Shown: positions 19,391-62,083 of the stretch, piece after piece
How positions within the stretch are numbered: position 1 is the first letter of the stretch
Layout: each line of letters starts with the position of its first letter
Assembly: GCA_030690415.1 (NCBI GenBank)
Contig: JAUYGZ010000003.1
Span: 62,001 to 126,000, forward strand
DNA length: 64,000 nucleotides
Reading direction: 5' to 3'
Source of the DNA: a bacterium
GTDB lineage: Bacteria > Patescibacteriota > Gracilibacteria > JAUYGZ01
Made by a program: the position numbers and the translations under genes
The notes under the pieces: model-generated
Told to the model about the DNA's origin: nothing
What the model saw: only the letters and a program-made list of their open reading frames with translations
Databases searched by the model: none

Positions 19391-20611
19391 ATGCTCAAAA
19401 AACTCTTCATCTTCGCTCTTTTCCTCACGGCTCTCTGGTATGTGGTTTCCAGCAATCCCAACCAGCCTTTTCAGGCCTCGGTTCTGCAAAACAAAGCTCC
19501 GGAAATCCATTTTTGGGGTATTTATGATCTTCCTGATATCTACAATCCCATCATTGATGCTTTCCAAAAGCAGCACCCCAGGGTAAAGATCTTCTACAAA
19601 CAGTTTCCCAATACCGAAGAATACCATCAGGTGCTCTTGGCACAGCTCGAAAAAGGCAGAGGGCCGGATATTTTTCTCTTCTCTGACCAAAATAAAGATC
19701 AGTATTGGCCCTATCTGACCCCTACGACCGCTGAGCTCAGTGAAGGGTTCACGCCCATCGCGAAGCGGGATTTTATCTCCAATCGGTTGCTCTACGCCCT
19801 GCCGTACTGGGTGGATAGCCTTATGCTCTACTACAACAAGCGATATTATCCCGAAGGAGTCCCCACACAGTGGTACGATCTGGCAGAACTCAGTCGAACG
19901 CTCAGTACCGGCGGGATTGCCATGGGACGTTTTGACAACCTCAAATCAGGCTGGGATATTCTGAAAACCCTTTTTCTTCAAAAAGATATAAAACTGGAAG
20001 GCAAACCTGAAAACAGTCTTTACGACACTCTTGAGTTCTTTACCCGGTTTGCGTACCCCATCGACCGCTACTTCAACTGGAACGAGAAGCTCAGCAAAGA
20101 CTATCCCGATCTGGAGATCGACAGTTTCGTGAGGAAAAAAGTAGCGGCCATCGCGGGGTACCCGTCTTTGTACTACCACCTCCTTCTCAAGATCGACCAA
20201 CTGGAAGCTCAGGGAATGACCCGAATAAAAAAGGAAGATATCGGCGTGTCGACTTTTCCTCAGTTCGATCCGGAAAATCCTGATTATCTCGCCAAATACA
20301 TGGCTATAGGAGTCTCCATGGCTTCCGAAAACACCACTCTCTCATGGGAGTTTATTCGGGCATTGACCAGTGAAAACAACTCGGCATACTACCAGCAGGT
20401 TACTGGAAGGACTCCGGGCAGGATTCTTCCGGTTCACGATGAAGAGAGCGAAATGACACGGGTACAAAAGGAGCAATTGATCAACAGTTCAACGCTACAA
20501 ATCAAGCCGGAAGCGGTTAAGATTATAGAGGATATTGTGAAGAGGGGCGTGTTGGATAAGAGGGTGCTTCTGGAAATACTGAATGTTGAGAATTTGAACC
20601 CTAAACCCTAA
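19391..20611 (+). CDS. Extracellular solute-binding protein (ABC sugar-binding-like)
   Basis: N-terminal hydrophobic signal; EIHFWGIYDLPDIYNPIIDAFQKQHPRVKIFYKQF, LPYWVDSLMLYYNKRYYPEGVPTQWYDLAELSRTL. Confidence 0.8.
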   Translation: MLKKLFIFALFLTALWYVVSSNPNQPFQASVLQNKAPEIHFWGIYDLPDIYNPIIDAFQKQHPRVKIFYKQFPNTEEYHQVLLAQLEKGRGPDIFLFSDQNKDQYWPYLTPTTAELSEGFTPIAKRDFISNRLLYALPYWVDSLMLYYNKRYYPEGVPTQWYDLAELSRTLSTGGIAMGRFDNLKSGWDILKTLFLQKDIKLEGKPENSLYDTLEFFTRFAYPIDRYFNWNEKLSKDYPDLEIDSFVRKKVAAIAGYPSLYYHLLLKIDQLEAQGMTRIKKEDIGVSTFPQFDPENPDYLAKYMAIGVSMASENTTLSWEFIRALTSENNSAYYQQVTGRTPGRILPVHDEESEMTRVQKEQLINSSTLQIKPEAVKIIEDIVKRGVLDKRVLLEILNVENLNPKP

Positions 20612-20649
20612 ACCCTAAACCCTAAACCCTAAACCCTAAACCCTCAACT
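20597..20649 (+). repeat. (AAACCCT)n heptamer array
   Basis: About six copies ending directly before the ychF ATG; the first copies encode the end of the upstream ORF. Confidence 0.95.
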
Positions 20650-22593: not shown

Positions 22594-22815
22594 TCATGGA
22601 TACATTTCTTTAAGAATGCGTTCCCAATTATGTTGACCACTCAAAGTATAATATGGTCCACAATATTTTGCTTGCCAATAAAAAATTCTACCCGCTTCTT
22701 CGTTCGCATCAGGGGCATCTGAGTTTGGAATCCTATTGCATTCCATAGAATAAGAAAATGTGCACAGCACAAGACCAACAATAATAAGTGATGTGAAAAT
22801 TATTTTCATATTCAT
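22594..22815 (-). CDS. Small exported hypothetical protein (73 aa)
   Basis: Signal-like N-terminus; start overlaps stop of upstream gene (ATGA). Confidence 0.5.
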   Translation of the reverse strand: MNMKIIFTSLIIVGLVLCTFSYSMECNRIPNSDAPDANEEAGRIFYWQAKYCGPYYTLSGQHNWERILKEMYP

Positions 22816-24257
22816 AAAAACTTTTTATACTCTGTATAGAGAATGTCCTGATGCTGATCTAGAACCTCAGATGGAGATCGAATGATATTCTCCTCGAAAA
22901 GAGCCTCTTCGAAAAGCTCTTCAGGGCTCCTGTCAGGATATTGGGTAGCATACTCACGGCCTTGTTTGTTATTCCACATGTCCATGATCGAGGATCGGGA
23001 AAATTCTTTTTTATTCTGAGCATAAGCCCAAAACAGTTCATGATTTGTAGTGATAATCTCTGCATTCTTCCTGTCAAATTTTCGGGTTAGGAGGACATTC
23101 CAAACAAAATGACGGAATGCATCGACTTCATTTTCAAGCCACAAAGGGTGTCTAACTCCTTTATCATCGACTCTGTAGAACCCTTTTTGATATGCATATT
23201 GAGTGGCTGCTTCTCTTGCCTGATGCATAATATTCCGAAGCTGATAAGCATTAATTTGAAGAACTGCAGGAAGATTAGCCAATTCTGCCAAACGAGACTG
23301 AATTGTATCAAGGTTGCCGTTCTGGGTATATTTCGAGCCAGCTTCAATTTCGACTTTTACCCGTATGAGCTCAGGAGTTTCGTCATACCAGAGCTCAACT
23401 GAAGAATCTCGATCCTGAAAGAGAAAATCTTCTCCAGAAATCATCAGTGATTCTCGTTGTCCTTTTAACTGGTCCCCTGAAAAAAAGAAGTGCTTGTACT
23501 TAAAAGACGTCGGTGCCAGGGGATTCATGATGATCTGTCCATTCGCGTATACTTTAATATTATCACCATCTGAGCTTCCTTTCTGAGCAGAGCTTTCACA
23601 GAGAGCAGTGATATCAATTAACTTTACCCGAAAAGGAGCGGTATTAAATGAACTCTGAAACACGAAACTTTTCCAGGGGATCCCGCCACGATCAGTTGTG
23701 ATACCAGGAGCTTTTTCTCCAAAATCAAAAATCGCATCTGCTATAGCATTACCCTTTTGATCCAGTTGGAAGAGTTCAATTTCTTTTATAATAGGTTTTC
23801 CGTCAGCTTTAAAAGAAAGAATATGCTTTCCCTTAGTCAGCTGCACAAAAAGAAAAACCGTCTTATTGCCACCTTTCAAGCTTGCTCCATCCCACGCCGC
23901 TGCTGTCCCAAACCCATGCCATGATACTTTTTCTTCATGAACTTCAGCTTTACCAAATTCAAATCCATCTAAAAGAACTCTTAAGTCGTCATCATCTCCC
24001 GTTTTATTCTGTTCTCCATTTTGAGCTGATGCCCTTATCTTGATGACATAAATAGCATCAGCTGTAATCTCAATGGAAGTATCCGCTTTCTTCCAATGGT
24101 AAAGATTGCCACCAGGTGCAGAGGGGAATTTAATCTTTCGGAAAATGGATTTCACATCAGGCTTAAAAAAATATAAAAAATTATATCCGTACCAGAGGAA
24201 GAAAGTCAATACGCCAGGAGCAAGGAAAAAGGAAAAGGGAGTAACTGCTTGCCACAC
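22812..24257 (-). CDS. Membrane-anchored exported protein with DUF6973-like C-terminal motif
   Basis: N-terminal TM; C-terminus ENEVDAFRHFVWNVLLTRKF...NHELFW...SIMDMWNNKQGREYA. Confidence 0.6.
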   Translation of the reverse strand: MWQAVTPFSFFLAPGVLTFFLWYGYNFLYFFKPDVKSIFRKIKFPSAPGGNLYHWKKADTSIEITADAIYVIKIRASAQNGEQNKTGDDDDLRVLLDGFEFGKAEVHEEKVSWHGFGTAAAWDGASLKGGNKTVFLFVQLTKGKHILSFKADGKPIIKEIELFQLDQKGNAIADAIFDFGEKAPGITTDRGGIPWKSFVFQSSFNTAPFRVKLIDITALCESSAQKGSSDGDNIKVYANGQIIMNPLAPTSFKYKHFFFSGDQLKGQRESLMISGEDFLFQDRDSSVELWYDETPELIRVKVEIEAGSKYTQNGNLDTIQSRLAELANLPAVLQINAYQLRNIMHQAREAATQYAYQKGFYRVDDKGVRHPLWLENEVDAFRHFVWNVLLTRKFDRKNAEIITTNHELFWAYAQNKKEFSRSSIMDMWNNKQGREYATQYPDRSPEELFEEALFEENIIRSPSEVLDQHQDILYTEYKKFL

Positions 24258-24260
24258 CCT

Positions 24261-25598
24261 TTACCCCAATAATCTCACCAATCCCGATATATCCTCAATT
24301 TTCCGGATCCTCAAAATTTCATTCTTGCTTTCAATATTCCCCCAAACTTCTTTGAATCCCAACTTTTCCAGCTCCTTCAACCTTCTCTGTTCCTGCGAAA
24401 CCGGTCGCACTTCACCGCTCAAGCCCACCTCGCCCATCACCACGACTCCTTCGGGCAGGGGAGCCTCCTTGCGCGACGAAATAATGGCGCTAACGACGGC
24501 CAGATCGATAGCCGGATCGCGAACTCGGAATCCACCGGTGATATTCACATACACATCCTGCTGATCCAGTTTCAACCTCGCGTGTTTATTCAGTACGGCC
24601 GTTAAAAGTTGCAATCGATTATTATCCACTCCATGAGCGGTCCGTTTCGGATAGTTGTAATCAGCGGCGTTCGTCAGTCCTTGCACTTCCAGGACAAATG
24701 GCCGGGTTCCCTCCAGGGTGACGGTGAGGGCCGATCCGATAGCCCCCTTTTTTCGCCCTTTCAAAAATACTTCCGAAGGGTTCTTCACTTCCTGAAGACC
24801 TTCCTCGACCATGGCGAAGACCCCCACTTCCATCGTGGATCCAAAACGATTCTTCATGGCTCGCAAAATGCGCAGGTCCTGATACCGTTCCCCCTCGAAA
24901 AAAAGAACCGTATCGACCAGATGCTCCAGCACTTTTGGCCCGGCCAGATCACCTTCCTTATTCACATGCCCGATGAGCATGACCGGGATTGCATCTTGCT
25001 TCGCCACGGACATCAGTTGTTCGGCAATGTGCCGGATCTGGACGATGCTTCCAGCCGAACCGGAGGACTGTTCAGCTGTAAAGGTTTGTACCGAATCAGC
25101 AATAACAAAATCCGGCTTCGCTTTTTTGATCGTCGCCAGAATCGATTCGAAATGATTCGCACTGACGAGTGAAAAGCTCGGGGGAATATCCCGTTTCCAG
25201 AGCCTTCGTGCCCGTAAAGAAAGCTGGTGAACCGACTCTTCTCCTGAAATATAAAGTACCTCTTTGCCCTGTTCCGCCAGCTTCAACCCGACCTGCAGCG
25301 CCAGCGTTGATTTGCCAATGCCCGGGTCTCCGGTGAGCAGCACAAAAGAATCATGCACCATCCCTCCGCCCATCACCCGGTCAAATTCTTCGATTCCTGT
25401 GTTCAAACGCTGCGCAAAAGCGTCTTCCAGGCTCACCTTGGAGATTTCAATGGTCTTGGCCTGGATTTGTTGAAATGCATTCGAATCCACCGCGTCTTCC
25501 TCGAGACTGTTCCACGCATGGCAATGCAGGCACTTGCCGGTCCATTTCGAGGCTTGCTCTCCACACTGGGCGCAGACGTAGATGGTTTTAATGGCCAT
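24261..25598 (-). CDS. radA: DNA repair protein RadA
   Basis: CAQCG..CLHCHAW zinc motif, GDPGIGKSTLALQ Walker A, KNRFGS motif, Lon-like C-terminus. Confidence 0.97.
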   Translation of the reverse strand: MAIKTIYVCAQCGEQASKWTGKCLHCHAWNSLEEDAVDSNAFQQIQAKTIEISKVSLEDAFAQRLNTGIEEFDRVMGGGMVHDSFVLLTGDPGIGKSTLALQVGLKLAEQGKEVLYISGEESVHQLSLRARRLWKRDIPPSFSLVSANHFESILATIKKAKPDFVIADSVQTFTAEQSSGSAGSIVQIRHIAEQLMSVAKQDAIPVMLIGHVNKEGDLAGPKVLEHLVDTVLFFEGERYQDLRILRAMKNRFGSTMEVGVFAMVEEGLQEVKNPSEVFLKGRKKGAIGSALTVTLEGTRPFVLEVQGLTNAADYNYPKRTAHGVDNNRLQLLTAVLNKHARLKLDQQDVYVNITGGFRVRDPAIDLAVVSAIISSRKEAPLPEGVVVMGEVGLSGEVRPVSQEQRRLKELEKLGFKEVWGNIESKNEILRIRKIEDISGLVRLLG

Positions 25599-25650
25599 AT
25601 TGACTTATATACATATATAGGTATAATGCAAATCTCATATTCTCCCCAGC

Positions 25651-27255
25651 ATGGAAATCTCCCTCTTCCTAAGCGTCCACGCCGATACGATAAATGAATC
25701 GGAGGCCAGTGTAAAACAGGAGCTCAGAAAGAGGCTTACTGACTGTCTTCAGTCGATTCGAACTTTCAATGGCTTCCAAAAAGGCGCTGAAATGATTCTC
25801 GAGTGCATCATAGCCGTGGAGGACTGGCAGACGAAAGTTTTTGGTTGTCCCCTAAAAGGAGAAGAAGAAAAGGAAGCCCTGGCATCAGTTTTGGGCAAAC
25901 AGGTGGAGAGATCAAAAAGATACAGTATCGATGGATTACTCAGCCGGACGATTGAGCGATTAGGCGTTCGATTGAGGAAGAAGATGAAGAGTGCCATCGA
26001 AGGCAAAAGTCCAGAACTGTTAAAAGATATTCTGATTATCCCAACCGATCAGATTTTCCTGCCACCCGGAGAAGGAGAGATCCAGCCGGGAAATGGTGGA
26101 CTGGAGACAAAGGAATTTCAATATCATAATCGACTCTCGGAGCTCATCTGGCTGCTCAATTCAAATGGAATTGATTCAGACGACATCATCATCGTGACGG
26201 GAAAGGTGAGTGAGAAACAGGTGAGACAAGAGCCTTACTACTTGGTTGAAATTCCGCGACTGAAGAGACAGGTTCTCATTTGCAATCAAGTTGGTGAGGC
26301 GACGTATTTGATACGAGGGATGTTTTCACGAAAAACACTTGCTCAGTGCAGCAAGAAAGAACTGCTGGAAAAGTATCCCGAGAAGGTGGTAAAGGTGCTA
26401 TATCGTGAAAAGAAAGAATGGGAAGCACAGATGAGCGTTGAGCTTTTTGCTCAAGGACCGGAAACTAAGCAGGATCTCAATAAACGGGAACGCTTCCGAC
26501 AAGAAATCCTGAAGCAAAAACTGACAGCGGAGGATTGGGTGGCGATGAAGGGGCAAGAGAAAAGCACCTTTTCAGTACGAGGCCAGAAGCTGAAAGCTCT
26601 CGTGAGACTTTTCGGAGTGGAGGGGAACCCGCTAAGCAATCACAGAATTCATCTGGAGTTGGGTTTGAGGGTCTATGGGGGTGAGAATGAGGACATTCTG
26701 AAAGCGATACAGGAATGGGAAAAAGCCCATCAGAATCTAAGCCAGGAAGAGGCAAAGACAGAAATCCTGAGTCAAAAACTGCATGCGGAGGATTGGGTGG
26801 CGATGAAGGTGCCAGAGAAACGAACCTTTTCAATCCGAGGCCAGAAGCTGAAAGCTCTCGTGAGACTTTTCGGAGTGGAGGGGGACCCGGTCGGCAATCA
26901 CAGGGTCCATCTGGAACTGGGTTTGAAGCTCTATGGGGAGGAGAACGAGGTTATTCTGAGGGCGATACTGGAATGGGAGGAGAGTCATCAGATTTTGAGC
27001 GAGGAAGAGGCGAGGGCGGAGATCCTAAAACAAAAACCGGCGGCAGAGGATTGGGTGGCGATGAAGCAGAAAGAAAAATTATCCTTTTCAGTACGAGGCC
27101 TGAAGCTGAGTGCTCTCGCCACACTTTTCAGAGTGGAGGGGAAACCGATCAACAAGCACAGGATCCATCTGGAGTTGGGTTTGAGGGTCTATGGGGGGGA
27201 GAACGAGCTCATAAAACAGGCATTGCTGGAACACGAAACCAGGAGGAGAAAATGA
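25651..27255 (+). CDS. Uncharacterised protein with three tandem 86-aa repeats
   Basis: Repeats start at 26503, 26761 and 27019 (258-bp spacing): EIL.QK..AEDWVAMK..EK..FS.RG.KL.AL..LF.VEG.P...HR.HLELGL..YG.ENE. Confidence 0.8.
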   Translation: MEISLFLSVHADTINESEASVKQELRKRLTDCLQSIRTFNGFQKGAEMILECIIAVEDWQTKVFGCPLKGEEEKEALASVLGKQVERSKRYSIDGLLSRTIERLGVRLRKKMKSAIEGKSPELLKDILIIPTDQIFLPPGEGEIQPGNGGLETKEFQYHNRLSELIWLLNSNGIDSDDIIIVTGKVSEKQVRQEPYYLVEIPRLKRQVLICNQVGEATYLIRGMFSRKTLAQCSKKELLEKYPEKVVKVLYREKKEWEAQMSVELFAQGPETKQDLNKRERFRQEILKQKLTAEDWVAMKGQEKSTFSVRGQKLKALVRLFGVEGNPLSNHRIHLELGLRVYGGENEDILKAIQEWEKAHQNLSQEEAKTEILSQKLHAEDWVAMKVPEKRTFSIRGQKLKALVRLFGVEGDPVGNHRVHLELGLKLYGEENEVILRAILEWEESHQILSEEEARAEILKQKPAAEDWVAMKQKEKLSFSVRGLKLSALATLFRVEGKPINKHRIHLELGLRVYGGENELIKQALLEHETRRRK

Positions 27256-27300
27256 GCATAAAATGCATGTCCGTTTCAATCGTATAAAAACCTTGTAAAC

Positions 27301-27319
27301 TATACGATACCATCGTATA
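27301..27319. promoter_or_regulatory. Inverted-repeat operator candidate
   Basis: TATACGAT-acc-ATCGTATA upstream of the ATPase; further half-site ATCGTATA at 27279-27286. Confidence 0.5.
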
Positions 27320-27336
27320 CTTATGACGATTTACCA

Positions 27337-28506
27337 ATGCTCATGGAAGAACTCCTGTATCGTTACAACCCCTGGTGGGAAAAGGCAATGAACCTGGAAG
27401 GCATCATTGAACGAAAAAAATACCTCGAAAAAATAATCCAATTCGTCCAAAGAAAGCAGATCTTCTTCCTGACAGGGCTTCGGAGAGTTGGTAAAACAAC
27501 CCTGTTGAAACTGCTGATCAAACACCTGATAGAAGAGCGGGAAATACCATCCAGACGCATCCTCTATATCTCCCTCGACGACTACAGGCTGAAGGAGACA
27601 AGCCTGCTGGAGCTTGTGGATCATTTTCGAAAGCTCCACAGCATTCCTTTTGAAGAAAAAATCTTCCTTTTCTTTGACGAGATCACCTTTCAAAAGAATT
27701 TTGAACAGCAGCTTAAAAATCTCTATGACACACAGCATGTCAGCGTATTTGCCTCTTCTTCAAGTGCCTCACTCCTCAAAGGGAAAAAACCCTTTCTAAC
27801 AGGGAGAAGTCAGATGCTTGAAATACTTCCTCTGGATTTTGATGAATATCTTGAATTCAAAGGCATACAGCATTCGAAGAGAGACAAACACCTGCTGGAA
27901 AATGACTTTGAAAGCTATTTGCAGACAGGAGGAATTCCAGAATATGTCCTCAATGGAGATATGGAATACCTAAAGGAACTGGTTGATGATCTGCTCATGA
28001 AGGATATCGTCGCCTATCACGGCATTCGGGATCCTCAAATCATCAAGGATTTTTTTCTCCTATTAATGGAACGAGTTGGGAAGCAATGCAGTATCAACAA
28101 AATGGCCAATATTCTGTCGATTTCACCGGATACAGCAAGGCGATACCTCGAGATGTTTGAGAACATTTATCTCATATACCTGATGCCCCGATGTGGAAAA
28201 ACGAATGAGCGGCTCTTGTCATCCAAAAAGATTTATGTGGCTGATCTCGGAATAAAAAACCTCTTTACGGGATTCCGTGACAAAGGAGCCGTCTTTGAAA
28301 ATTACATCTATCTCAAAATAAAAGATAAAAACCCCTGTTACCTGTCCCAGGATGGGAATGAAATTGATTTTCTAACAAACGAAAACACGCTTATCGAAGT
28401 CAAGTACGGAAGAGAAATGGGGAAAAAACAGCAAGCGCTCTTCGATCAATTTCCTGCGAAGCGAAAAAGGATCATCAGTTCGATCCATGATCTTGAAGAG
28501 TTATAA
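27337..28506 (+). CDS. ATP-binding protein, AAA/DUF4143-like
   Basis: FFLTGLRRVGKTTLLKLLI, IFLFFDEI, SSSASLL, C-terminal nuclease-like EIDFLTNENTLIEVKYG. Confidence 0.85.
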   Translation: MLMEELLYRYNPWWEKAMNLEGIIERKKYLEKIIQFVQRKQIFFLTGLRRVGKTTLLKLLIKHLIEEREIPSRRILYISLDDYRLKETSLLELVDHFRKLHSIPFEEKIFLFFDEITFQKNFEQQLKNLYDTQHVSVFASSSSASLLKGKKPFLTGRSQMLEILPLDFDEYLEFKGIQHSKRDKHLLENDFESYLQTGGIPEYVLNGDMEYLKELVDDLLMKDIVAYHGIRDPQIIKDFFLLLMERVGKQCSINKMANILSISPDTARRYLEMFENIYLIYLMPRCGKTNERLLSSKKIYVADLGIKNLFTGFRDKGAVFENYIYLKIKDKNPCYLSQDGNEIDFLTNENTLIEVKYGREMGKKQQALFDQFPAKRKRIISSIHDLEEL

Positions 28507-28695
28507 AACTTCATAAGCCGATCACCTGATCCGCCCGAACACTGTCCGTGAAGGTCTGGGAACTACTGGTTGAACATTCAAGGTGGCCAGCTTTATTCAG
28601 GAAACTTTCGATCTCTAAAGCTGATTTCGAAATCAAAAATATCATTGCGAGAGACGAAAAGCCTTGAATTGAACGTCGTCATCATGTATCATTAC

Positions 28696-28713
28696 ATTAT
28701 CATATATGATAAT
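28696..28713. promoter_or_regulatory. 18-nt perfect palindrome, candidate AbiEi operator
   Basis: ATTATCATATATGATAAT immediately upstream of the TA operon. Confidence 0.5.
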
Positions 28714-28722
28714 TAACTGATA

Positions 28723-29322
28723 TTGAATTTTATTACGTTTCACAGATTCTGTCAGCAAAGTGGACTAAAAGTGTTCACGATTCATGATCTCAAGGTTTTG
28801 TTTGCTGACTCCTCTTATGAGTACCTGCTTTTGAAGCTGAGCCGATGGAAGAAAAAGGGGCTTCTCATATCGCTTAAGAGAGGAGTCTATGTTTTCCCCG
28901 AAATTACCCTTGATGAATTTGAAATTTCCTCCCTGTTGCTAAAGCCCTCTTATATTTCACTGGAATCAGCTCTTTCCCATTATAGTCTGATTCCCGAGGT
29001 CAGCGCTGAGGTGACCGCGGTGACTTCGAAAAATACTCATCATTATCGGATTGGAAAAACCCGTTATCATTTTCATCACGTCAGGCAGGAGTTGTTCACA
29101 GGTTTCAGAAGCCTGGATGATGAAGTCTTTATTGCCGTTCCTGAAAAAGCTCTCCTGGATTACTGTTATCTGAGGCATCCCGGTTCGGATGATATGATCT
29201 TTGAGCGTTTTAATCGGGAAAAGGCTGTTACCCTCGACATTTCCCTTCTCAAACAAATGGCAGCACTTTATCCACCTTATGTTCAGCATTTTGTAATTCA
29301 TTTGCTTGATGTTATCACTTGA
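28723..29322 (+). CDS. AbiEi-like antitoxin / transcriptional regulator (TTG start)
   Basis: wHTH N-terminus (KLSRWKKKGLLISLKRGVYVFPE), PSYISLESALSHYSLIPE, PEKALLDYCYL; overlaps AbiEii-like gene. Confidence 0.8.
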   Translation: MNFITFHRFCQQSGLKVFTIHDLKVLFADSSYEYLLLKLSRWKKKGLLISLKRGVYVFPEITLDEFEISSLLLKPSYISLESALSHYSLIPEVSAEVTAVTSKNTHHYRIGKTRYHFHHVRQELFTGFRSLDDEVFIAVPEKALLDYCYLRHPGSDDMIFERFNREKAVTLDISLLKQMAALYPPYVQHFVIHLLDVIT

Positions 29323-30154
29323 GAACCTCCTTTATTTTGCTGCGTTGAAACAGATGCCAATTGAGAAACGGCGCGGCATTGTTCGTGAATATCTGCAAAC
29401 ACTAGCTCTCTCTTTTCTCCAACAGAGTTCTCTGGCACCCCGGATGATTTTTATTGGAGGCACCGCTCTGAGATTTTTCTATGATCTTAGGCGATTTTCA
29501 GAAGATCTGGATTTTAATTATCGGGGAACTCTGAAAGAACAAGAATTGTATGATCTGGGTGAATATCTGAAAAAAGCTTTCGCGGGGGAGGGGATTGCTC
29601 TCGAGTTCTCTGTCAGAAAGTCTCAGGAAAGTTATTTCCATTGGAAGGTTTATCTGAAGTTTCCCGATATCTTGCAGGTCTATGGATGTGCCGGCCGCGG
29701 TGGGCAGACTCTCCATCCGGGTGAAATGTTGTCGATTCAGATCGACTTTCATAATCTCGGTAAAGCAGCTTACCCTCTCCAAAAAAAGATTATTGCTCAT
29801 TTCGGGAAACGATTTCTGATGAATACGACCAATTTGGAGATGTTTTTGGCAGAAAAATCACATGCGATGCTCTTTCGAAAAAGCGCGCGTGGAAGGGACT
29901 TTTTTGATTTTATGTCTCTGATTGGTTGGGGGGCTCGTCTTGATCTTTCCTCTCTGAAGCAGAGAGCTGTCGATGTAAAAAGTTCACATGAGTATCGGAG
30001 GCTTCTCGAAAGGAAGGTTTCACATCTTAATTTCAAAAAACTGACGGATCAGCTCAGTCCCTTTTTATTTTCCGCTGAGGATGTGACGATCATGAGATCT
30101 TTTCCAGATCATCTGGGAGATCTGTTGAATGTTCAGCTCAAAGACACCACCTGA
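29309..30154 (+). CDS. AbiEii-like nucleotidyltransferase toxin
   Basis: FIGGTALRFFYDLRRFSEDLDFNYRG nucleotidyltransferase motif. Confidence 0.85.
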   Translation: MLSLENLLYFAALKQMPIEKRRGIVREYLQTLALSFLQQSSLAPRMIFIGGTALRFFYDLRRFSEDLDFNYRGTLKEQELYDLGEYLKKAFAGEGIALEFSVRKSQESYFHWKVYLKFPDILQVYGCAGRGGQTLHPGEMLSIQIDFHNLGKAAYPLQKKIIAHFGKRFLMNTTNLEMFLAEKSHAMLFRKSARGRDFFDFMSLIGWGARLDLSSLKQRAVDVKSSHEYRRLLERKVSHLNFKKLTDQLSPFLFSAEDVTIMRSFPDHLGDLLNVQLKDTT

Positions 30155-30732
30155 TCCGGATTCAAAAAACTAAACTCATCAGATTGATTCGTAAACACCA
30201 CAATCGTCGCCCCTCCATCCTTGGCCTCCCCCAACCTCTTCAAAAAATATTCCCGTGAAGCCCCATCCAGCCCCATAAAGGGCTCATCCCAAAGGATCAA
30301 TCGGGACTGGTTCACGAATGACCGTTCCAGCTCCAGCTTCCGTTGCTCGGTGAAGGACAAATCACGGACCAGCTGATCGGGGAGCAGATTCCAATGCCTC
30401 AATACGGCACCCAATTGTTCGGGAGAAGCCAGGCTGAGGACTTTCGACACCGTGTCATAGGCTCCAAAGGAAGGCGTTTGAAAGACAATGCCACTGGATT
30501 GAAGGAGGAGTTTCCTTTCCTTCCCGCTCAAAAATCGGCTGTCCCGATCGTCAATCAGCACCTGGCCACGCGTCGGTTTCAATCGTCCGATGAGGCACTC
30601 CAGGAGAGAACTTTTCCCGGAGCTGTTTACTCCCATGAAAATCACACAAGATCCTTTTTCAATGGTGGCCGAGAAGTCCTCGAGGAGCTTCCGATGGTTG
30701 CGGTAGATCGTGAGGTGTTGGAGTTGGATCAT
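30133..30732 (-). CDS. ABC transporter ATP-binding protein
   Basis: MGVNSSGKSSLLECLIG Walker A, LILWDEPFMGLDG Walker B; signature motif degenerate (LSFTEQRKLELER). Confidence 0.8.
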   Translation of the reverse strand: MIQLQHLTIYRNHRKLLEDFSATIEKGSCVIFMGVNSSGKSSLLECLIGRLKPTRGQVLIDDRDSRFLSGKERKLLLQSSGIVFQTPSFGAYDTVSKVLSLASPEQLGAVLRHWNLLPDQLVRDLSFTEQRKLELERSFVNQSRLILWDEPFMGLDGASREYFLKRLGEAKDGGATIVVFTNQSDEFSFLNPDQVVSLS

Positions 30733-30832
30733 GAAGGGAATGAGGAAACGAGGAAATGAGGAAACAAGGAAACAAGGAAACAAGGAAATAGCATTTTTTC
30801 TCTCTTTCGTTCCTCGTTTCCTCGTTTCTTTA

Positions 30833-32236
30833 TTATGAAAGCCGATGCGCGACCTGTAAAATTCTCCCTTCCCCAAAGTGCTGCCCAATAATTTGAAGCC
30901 CGAGCGGCATTCCCTTCAGCTCTCCGCTAGGAATGGAAATCGCAGGCACTCCAGCCACGCTCGCCGGCACCGTCATCACGTCTTCCAGATACATCTGAAT
31001 CGGATCACTGCCTTTCGAACCGGTTACAAAGGCAATGTTCGGCGTCGTGGGAGTAAAGATCACATCCACGGATTCAAAAGCCTTCTTAAAATCGTTCACA
31101 ATCAGCGTGCGCACTTTCAGCGCCTTTTTGTAGTAGGCATCATAATATCCCGCACTCAGGGCATAGGTTCCAATAATAATCCGACGCTTCACCTCGTCGC
31201 CAAAGCCTTTAGTTCTCGACTCGAAATAGGATTCAACCAGATTCGGCGCGTCACTTTTCGGTCCAAAACGAAGCCCATCATATCGGGCCATGTTGGCCGA
31301 AACCTCGCTTGGGCAGATGACATAGTAGACGGCCAAACCATACTTCGTCATGGGCAGAGAAATTTCCTGAATCTTCGCTCCAAGTTTTTTTGCCCGCTTA
31401 ACGGTTTCATCGAAGACCTTGCGGACCTCCGGTTCCAGTCCGTCCAGGTATTCTTTTGGAACGCCGATTGTAATGCCTTTGACCTCCTTGTTCAGCTCGG
31501 CAGGGTAGTCCTCTACTTCTTGCTGCGGCGTCGTGGCATCCATCGGATCATGACCGGCAATCACCTTGAGCACGATGGCCGCGTCTTCGGGGGTTTGGGT
31601 AATCGGACCAATGGTATCCAATGAGCTGGCCATGGACATCACGCCATATCGGGAGACTCGACCATAGGTCACCTTTAATCCCGTTAGTCCACAAAAAGAA
31701 GCCGGTTGTCGGATGCTCCCTCCGGTGTCAGTTCCCAAAGCCCAAGGCACCATGCCCGCTGCCACAGCGGCTGCTGATCCACCTGAGGAGCCACCGGGAG
31801 TTCGTTTCGGATCCAGGGGATTTCTGCTCGTCCCAAAACGAGAGGTCTCGGTTGACCCCCCCATCGTAAATTCATCCGTATTGGTGTGCCCGATGAAGAC
31901 GGCTCCCAGACCCCTCAGTTTTCGGAGGACGGTTCCCTCATACGGCGGCTTAAACCCCTTCAGGACATTCGAACAGGCTGTCGATTCCACGCCCAGTTCA
32001 CAAAAATTGTCCTTCACTCCCAGGGGAATACCGGTGAGTTCATTCCCTTCACCCTTCGCGATCATCTCATCAGCCTTTTTTGCCATCGTTAAAGCTCCTT
32101 CACGGTTCACGGAGATGAAAGCATTGAGCTTCCCGTTCTGTTCTTCTATCGCTTTCAAGCACTGCTCCGTCAGTTCGACAGAGCTCAGTTTCCCTGAACG
32201 TAATTTCTCCGACAAAACCTTAATCGTTCTATCCAT
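30833..32236 (-). CDS. gatA: Asp-tRNA(Asn)/Glu-tRNA(Gln) amidotransferase subunit A
   Basis: GVKDNFC, TPGGSSGGSAAAVAAGMVPWALGTDTGGSIRQPASFCG amidase signature. Confidence 0.97.
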   Translation of the reverse strand: MDRTIKVLSEKLRSGKLSSVELTEQCLKAIEEQNGKLNAFISVNREGALTMAKKADEMIAKGEGNELTGIPLGVKDNFCELGVESTACSNVLKGFKPPYEGTVLRKLRGLGAVFIGHTNTDEFTMGGSTETSRFGTSRNPLDPKRTPGGSSGGSAAAVAAGMVPWALGTDTGGSIRQPASFCGLTGLKVTYGRVSRYGVMSMASSLDTIGPITQTPEDAAIVLKVIAGHDPMDATTPQQEVEDYPAELNKEVKGITIGVPKEYLDGLEPEVRKVFDETVKRAKKLGAKIQEISLPMTKYGLAVYYVICPSEVSANMARYDGLRFGPKSDAPNLVESYFESRTKGFGDEVKRRIIIGTYALSAGYYDAYYKKALKVRTLIVNDFKKAFESVDVIFTPTTPNIAFVTGSKGSDPIQMYLEDVMTVPASVAGVPAISIPSGELKGMPLGLQIIGQHFGEGRILQVAHRLS

Positions 32237-32314: not shown

Positions 32315-32374
32315 CCTATGCTCAACCCTCAACCCACAACCCTCAACCCACAACCCTTAACCCACAACCCTCAA

Positions 32375-32662
32375 CTAAATACTCTTCCTCACCTTAATCA
32401 TCCCTCGCTCATTCTCTCGTTCTGAGGTCTTTAAAACATCCTCCCGGTCAAGGCTTGGGAGGACGGGATCATCACGATCCACGTTCACGAGACCATTGAC
32501 CTGGGCAGTTTCTTCCACACCGTCGGTGTCCACTTCCGCAAGAGTATCGAGATGATGAAAAATAGATCCCAGTTGCCCGGTGAATCGATCCAGCTCTTCG
32601 TCCGTCAGGTGGAGACGGGCGAGTTTAGCGACGTGTCGAACATCATCTTTTGTCAAAGCCAT
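32375..32662 (-). CDS. gatC: Amidotransferase subunit C
   Basis: DDVRHVAKLARLHLTDEELDRFTGQLGSIFHHLDTLAEVDTDGVEETA. Confidence 0.95.
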   Translation of the reverse strand: MALTKDDVRHVAKLARLHLTDEELDRFTGQLGSIFHHLDTLAEVDTDGVEETAQVNGLVNVDRDDPVLPSLDREDVLKTSERENERGMIKVRKSI

Positions 32663-61594: not shown

Positions 61595-62083
61595 ATGTCA
61601 GATGAAGATACCACTACCGAGGAGGTAGCTGAAGAAGCAGCTGCTCCTGCGAAAAAGGCGGCACCTGCGGCAGAAGCCGCTGCTGAGCCTTCAGTTGAGC
61701 TTTCAAAAAACGCACAAAAAGTGCTTGATATGGTCAAAGAACTGCCTGCCCTCGAGCTGGCCAACCTGGTCAAGGCCATGGAAGAAGTCTTCGGAGTCAG
61801 CGCTGCTGCTCCAGTGGCTATGATGGTTGCAGGAGGTGGAGGCGGTGGAGGAGGAGAGGTTGCAGCTGAGAAAACAGCGTTCAACGTGGAGCTGACCTCT
61901 GCCGGAGGCAGCAAGATCAATGTCATCAAGGTGGTCCGTGAAATCACGGGTCTTGGACTGAAAGAAGCCAAGGACCTCGTCGACGGAGCTCCTAAGATGG
62001 TCAAAGAGAACGTGAAGAAAGCGGATGCCGAAGAAATAAAGGCGAAGCTCGAAGCAGCCGGTGCTTCTGTAGAGCTCAAATAA
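61595..62083 (+). CDS. rplL: Ribosomal protein L7/L12
   Basis: [71 protein letters not shown]. Confidence 0.97.

Follow-up and report, generated by a model that had tools for sequence, protein, structure and literature searches.

The 64,000-nucleotide stretch analyzed here (the window), positions 62,001 to 126,000 of contig JAUYGZ010000003.1 from a Gracilibacteria genome, carries at 25651..27255 (+) a gene for a 534-amino-acid protein made up of a constant N-terminal domain, the head, and a C-terminal array of three tandem repeats. We find that this protein is a member of an undescribed Patescibacteria family in which one conserved head is joined to differing, interchangeable tandem-repeat tails. 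It is reasonably probable that these are two-part recognition proteins, in which a constant head is combined with an exchangeable nucleic-acid-binding array whose ligand would more likely be DNA than RNA. The literature on tandem-repeat proteins in these lineages, as searched, yielded no description of the family.

A conserved head joined to exchangeable arrays

The open reading frame is present in one copy in the 1.45 Mb genome (98.8% complete) and has homologues in other genomes. As the initial annotation had claimed, its repeats begin in frame at 26503, 26761 and 27019, with start-to-start distances of exactly 258 and 258 bp, and Tandem Repeats Finder assigns them a period of 258 bp, 2.7 copies and a score of 935, the highest of the window. 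Units 1 (26503..26760, +; also recovered by the repeat scan and the repeat profile) and 2 (26761..27018, +) comprise the expected 86 amino acids, whereas unit 3 (27019..27252, +), found by the repeat scan and Tandem Repeats Finder, is shortened to 78 by the stop codon. Identity to copy 1 is 83% for copy 2 and 70% for copy 3, and the identical block in the first two units, earlier put at about 47 bp, exists and measures 48 bp (26578-26625 = 26836-26883). Synonymous (dS) and nonsynonymous (dN) divergence is 0.42 and 0.14 between units 1 and 2, 0.55 and 0.24 between units 1 and 3, and 0.48 and 0.31 between units 2 and 3. Because dS falls at 0.42-0.55 and dN at 0.14-0.31, the array is an older duplication, well established and under purifying selection. 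Local identity in the repeat core exceeds what the average unit divergence would predict, and gene conversion is a possible source of the excess.

What the initial annotation overlooked is that the N-terminal half is the conserved part of the protein and defines the family, the repeats being the part that is exchanged. This half consists of a helical region that varies between relatives (amino acids 18-116; 25702..25998, +; modeled by AlphaFold2 with medium confidence) and an alpha/beta core (amino acids 128-265; 26032..26445, +) delimited by alignments, conservation, the structural model and the profile survey. Residues R192, Y196 and K235 are invariant in 46/46 family members, and a PP pair at 138-139, G184 and a hairpin that reads CNQVGEATYL in the window protein (CNQVGEATFV-like across the family) are strongly conserved. 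The family is defined by an N-terminal domain with the invariant R, Y and K followed by a tandem array, and the window protein has both, its array being one of three repeats. Most heads are acidic, and their net charge is mostly negative.

Neither half belongs to a family that could be recognized by sequence or by fold, in agreement with the initial annotation. Searches of Pfam and NCBIfam with the window protein gave sub-threshold chance matches only, among them Rapsyn_N (E 0.0012) and PRK14555 (E 0.0017), both under the cutoff, and in PHROGs and PADLOC nothing credible was found, the single weak match in each being taken as chance. Profiles of the full protein found nothing in the PDB, and those of a single repeat and of the head found nothing credible there.

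The window's class takes in Peribacteria and genomes that read TGA as glycine, and a profile of the N-terminal domain detects the family in 37 of its 357 genomes. In a phylum-wide sample of 382 it gives 16 matches, and five of those outside the class look real; L103 and L104 (E 4e-4 and 9e-4), whose sequences resemble a U32 peptidase and TsaD, were treated as false. Relatives named in public records come from Peribacteria, Uhrbacteria and another Patescibacteria bin, and one in a metagenome-assembled genome labeled as a delta proteobacterium (L095) may reflect mis-binning. Phage, plasmid and IMG/VR collections contained no relatives at the sensitivity used, and a phage origin of the window gene was set aside on that ground. 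A profile of the window-type repeat matches 26 of the 357 class genomes and no other class within the phylum sample, although the repeat also occurs in Uhrbacteria records (L090, L091). Relatives carry from 2 to 8 window-type units, which bears out the earlier expectation of lineage-restricted homologues with variable repeat number. In one genome several paralogues with related arrays of differing lengths are clustered in tandem (L079; G024:C1:1-12000). In L052 (L052:3846-5978) a window-type array is broken by in-frame stops, with its units split over two successive open reading frames; this is either a copy in decay or an error in the sequence.

Array kinds were assigned by eye, and the C-terminal parts were then compared pair by pair with BLAST as a check. 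About ten kinds occur on the same head: the window kind, helix-turn-helix (HTH) kinds, the HA domain and several that are unnamed. This count is an upper estimate, because the window kind and the kind found in G024, outwardly different, prove to be related by profile search. Arrays of the HA domain (PF03457) are present in L062 (E 1.9e-52) and L066 (E 1.9e-14), and arrays of HTH families in L098, L105 and L100 and, more weakly, in L085 and L082. The arrays of L084 and L099 presumably resemble integrase repeat units. A match of L017 to PRS2_N above the cutoff was rejected, since no single stretch passes and the sum is inflated over repeats.

Arrays have been swapped between close relatives while the head stayed. 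The clearest case pairs L085, from a one-contig genome, with L051: their heads are 70% identical in amino acid sequence and 79% identical in DNA over 784 bp, the similarity stops at the array start, and the arrays beyond that point are unrelated (HTH versus another kind). Array kinds also differ between L064 and L066 (heads 78% identical in amino acids) and between L062 and L065 (62%); both comparisons are more exposed to assembly error, since the contigs that carry HA arrays break off within the array. Contig ends truncate L050, L062, L066 and L082. When the 11 array labels are placed on a tree of heads, at least 14 changes are needed, several of them on well-supported branches, and one protein (L053) combines two array kinds. 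Near-identical units in L062, L095 and L051 reveal separate recent expansions. Arrays of this family evolve in two ways, through duplication of units and through replacement of the entire array by one of an unrelated kind, the head being retained in both. One head with many kinds of array, and DNA similarity that ends where the array begins, amounts to a natural experiment on the birth and replacement of such arrays.

Nucleic acid as the probable ligand

We propose that the C-terminal modules, each a helical unit of about 86 amino acids, bind nucleic acid, and that each module would add to the length or sequence recognized. The array is likely to be a nucleic-acid reader because the same head bears HA and HTH arrays, which are nucleic-acid-associated types, and because the window repeat also occurs, without the head, on superfamily 2 (SF2) helicases and beside a sigma-70-region-4-like tail. 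It is C-terminal in the helicases L086, L143 and L149; in a fourth (L148:272-3532) two repeats lie between the RecA halves; in L144 it adjoins the sigma-like tail, itself below the Pfam cutoff; and L142 is a repeat-only protein of 307 amino acids. The proposal also draws on the exchange of arrays, on their basic character (37 of 45 have a net positive charge), on the range of 2-8 units and on the position of variable residues. The AlphaFold2 model of the full-length protein has a mean predicted local distance difference test score (pLDDT) of 83, rising to about 90 within the array, and the single-repeat model (unit 2; pLDDT 93.1) consists of six helices, which supports the helical repeats postulated earlier. 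Two of these helices, at residues 42-48 and 59-70, are separated by a turn, and columns 60, 61 and 63-65, located at the turn and where the second helix starts, rank with the most variable of the repeat, those of the core with the least. This pattern is as expected of a recognition helix in the predicted fold and is not proof of one.

For the head, we favor a role other than cleavage. It contains no conserved acidic or histidine set as found in a nuclease, the sole column with at least 70% D/E (82%) being its own residue 178, and because of this it probably acts by oligomerizing, by recruiting a partner or by blocking access. Taken together, the protein may act as a sequence-directed silencer, a repressor or a targeting factor.

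Several observations weigh against nucleic-acid recognition, or against DNA in particular. The window-type repeat matches no known DNA-binding family in Pfam, including the HTH families, though its model has two helices split by a turn, and it is no match to the HA domain at the Pfam cutoff. Foldseek, which had been suggested as a check of one repeat, returned nothing significant from the PDB for the single repeat, the lowest E value being 5.0; a match to the TP901-1 CI domain is likewise non-significant (E 8). For the whole model, neither the PDB (lowest E 0.26) nor BFVD yielded a significant relative. The HTH E-values of sister arrays are inflated by many weak copies adding up, and most lack a single passing stretch; the biochemistry of the HA domain is itself poorly known. 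Charge is not uniform, neutral or acidic arrays making up 8 of the 45, and that of the window array is modest (isoelectric point 9.3, net charge +6 over 257 amino acids). Finally, the preference for DNA over RNA as the ligand is inferred.

The array might instead bind RNA, making the protein a modular RNA-recognition factor similar in kind to PUF or PPR proteins and acting on transcripts or ribosomal RNA. The presence of the window repeat on four SF2 helicases is compatible with this, as is a weak, recurring likeness to CTE_SPB4 (PF13959), a domain that extends rRNA helicases at the C-terminus (L148, 1e-5, 25.9 bits against a cutoff of 27; L142, 5e-4; P0002, 2e-4). All of these scores are below the Pfam cutoff, however, with no single passing stretch and with inflation by repeat number, and the window protein has no match to CTE_SPB4 in Pfam. 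The helicase cores that bear the repeat are ResIII/SWI2-SNF2-like and resemble restriction and defense helicases, and the sister arrays that share this head belong to HTH types, usually DNA binders. We therefore consider RNA binding unlikely.

The initial annotation had proposed nucleic-acid or protein binding. The first part is now better argued, by the company the domains keep and not by composition alone. The second would make the array a protein-protein scaffold of the ankyrin or TPR sort, such as an effector that an epibiont directs at its host or prey; the prevailing view is that most members of this phylum are symbionts, and array exchange with unit expansion would also fit a scaffold engaged in an arms race. 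Yet inspection by eye shows no N-terminus resembling a signal peptide, arrays are mostly basic, those of relatives are of HTH and HA types, and the repeat is fused to helicases, so that a scaffold seems to us a distinctly poor prospect.

If the arrays do read nucleic acid, the family could provide ultra-small bacteria with a natural recognition system that can be re-targeted, in which a constant effector head is served by about ten exchanged and expanded array kinds, each reading its own target, probably for silencing or marking foreign or selfish DNA. We advance this tentatively, as a possibility that falls short of even likelihood; were it true, the 86-amino-acid module of the window would represent a recognition repeat of a new kind. 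That module, a fold predicted with high confidence for which no PDB relative was detected, is a candidate starting point for new binding modules that can be programmed, and the family offers a way to study gene control or genome defense in a phylum with very hard genetics.

Relation to known modular recognition proteins

To our knowledge, each known kind of modular DNA-recognition protein is built from a single type of repeat, as in transcription activator-like effectors (TAL effectors, TALEs) and zinc-finger proteins. KRAB zinc-finger proteins pair a constant N-terminal head with a fast-changing C-terminal recognition array that always consists of C2H2 fingers. The window family is analogous in its constant head and changing array and differs in having about ten array kinds and no sequence relationship to them. 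HA domains, like the window repeat, form tandem arrays on SF2 helicases, and they are found as arrays on the family's own head in L062 and L066, whereas the window repeat is no HA domain by Pfam.

TAL effectors and the TALE-likes of Burkholderia (PMC4066763), together with STAR proteins (PMC11417379), provide a working analogy for modular recognition, as they are bacterial tandem helical modules with variable unit number and variable positions in a fixed core. In contrast to their two-helix hairpin of about 33-35 amino acids with variable loop residues, the window unit has 86 amino acids and six helices, it lacks a repeat-variable diresidue code, and array kinds are exchanged wholesale. Pfam, PDB sequence and Foldseek searches revealed no sequence or fold match between the window repeat and known TALE repeats. 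Hu et al. (2024; PMC11417379) described new prokaryotic helical tandem-repeat proteins and demonstrated DNA binding for one of them, pTERF; the window family is likewise a newly found helical tandem-repeat family of prokaryotes, whereas pTERF units are three-helix and mTERF-like. The main text of that study does not mention Patescibacteria, Peregrinibacteria or Candidatus. By analogy, the window protein is TALE- or KRAB zinc-finger-like in outline and a member of neither family.

Genomic surroundings

The divergent neighbor of the gene is radA (24261-25598, -), as first reported. In two related genera (L109, G001; L110, G002) radA lies directly beside a gene for an FtsE-like ABC ATPase (30136-30915 in the window), and synteny with these empty sites defines a segment, 25627..30151, that is absent from both; the earlier placement of the gene at the edge of an accessory island is thereby borne out. 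The segment holds the family gene, an ATPase with AAA_14 and DUF4143 domains (27337..28506, +) that matches the PADLOC candidate PDC-S01 (5e-76), and, by library and PADLOC matches, an AbiEi-type antitoxin (28723..29322, +) and an AbiEii-type toxin (29306..30154, +), a nucleotidyltransferase of a type IV toxin-antitoxin system. The window copy was thus inserted as part of a small defense-like island. That the gene is chiefly cargo of such a mobile or defense island, working with the PDC-S01 ATPase and the AbiE pair, is suggested by the shared segment and by the PADLOC matches of these neighbors, and is nonetheless very improbable, given that family genes elsewhere are single, stand among mixed housekeeping genes and share no neighbor or conserved operon, that the window protein itself has no PADLOC match, and that no relatives turned up in the phage, plasmid and IMG/VR collections at the sensitivity used.

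A second insertion absent from L109 and L110 adjoins radA on its other side (22597-24260) and contains a small open reading frame and a gene for a 481-amino-acid DUF6973 protein. Between two genes at 20597-20648 lie 7.4 copies of AACCCTA, the sole such site in the whole genome. Short tandem arrays also occur near gene boundaries at 32321-32375, composed of CTCAACC-like 7-mers, and at 30734-30789, composed of AGGAAACA 8-mers.
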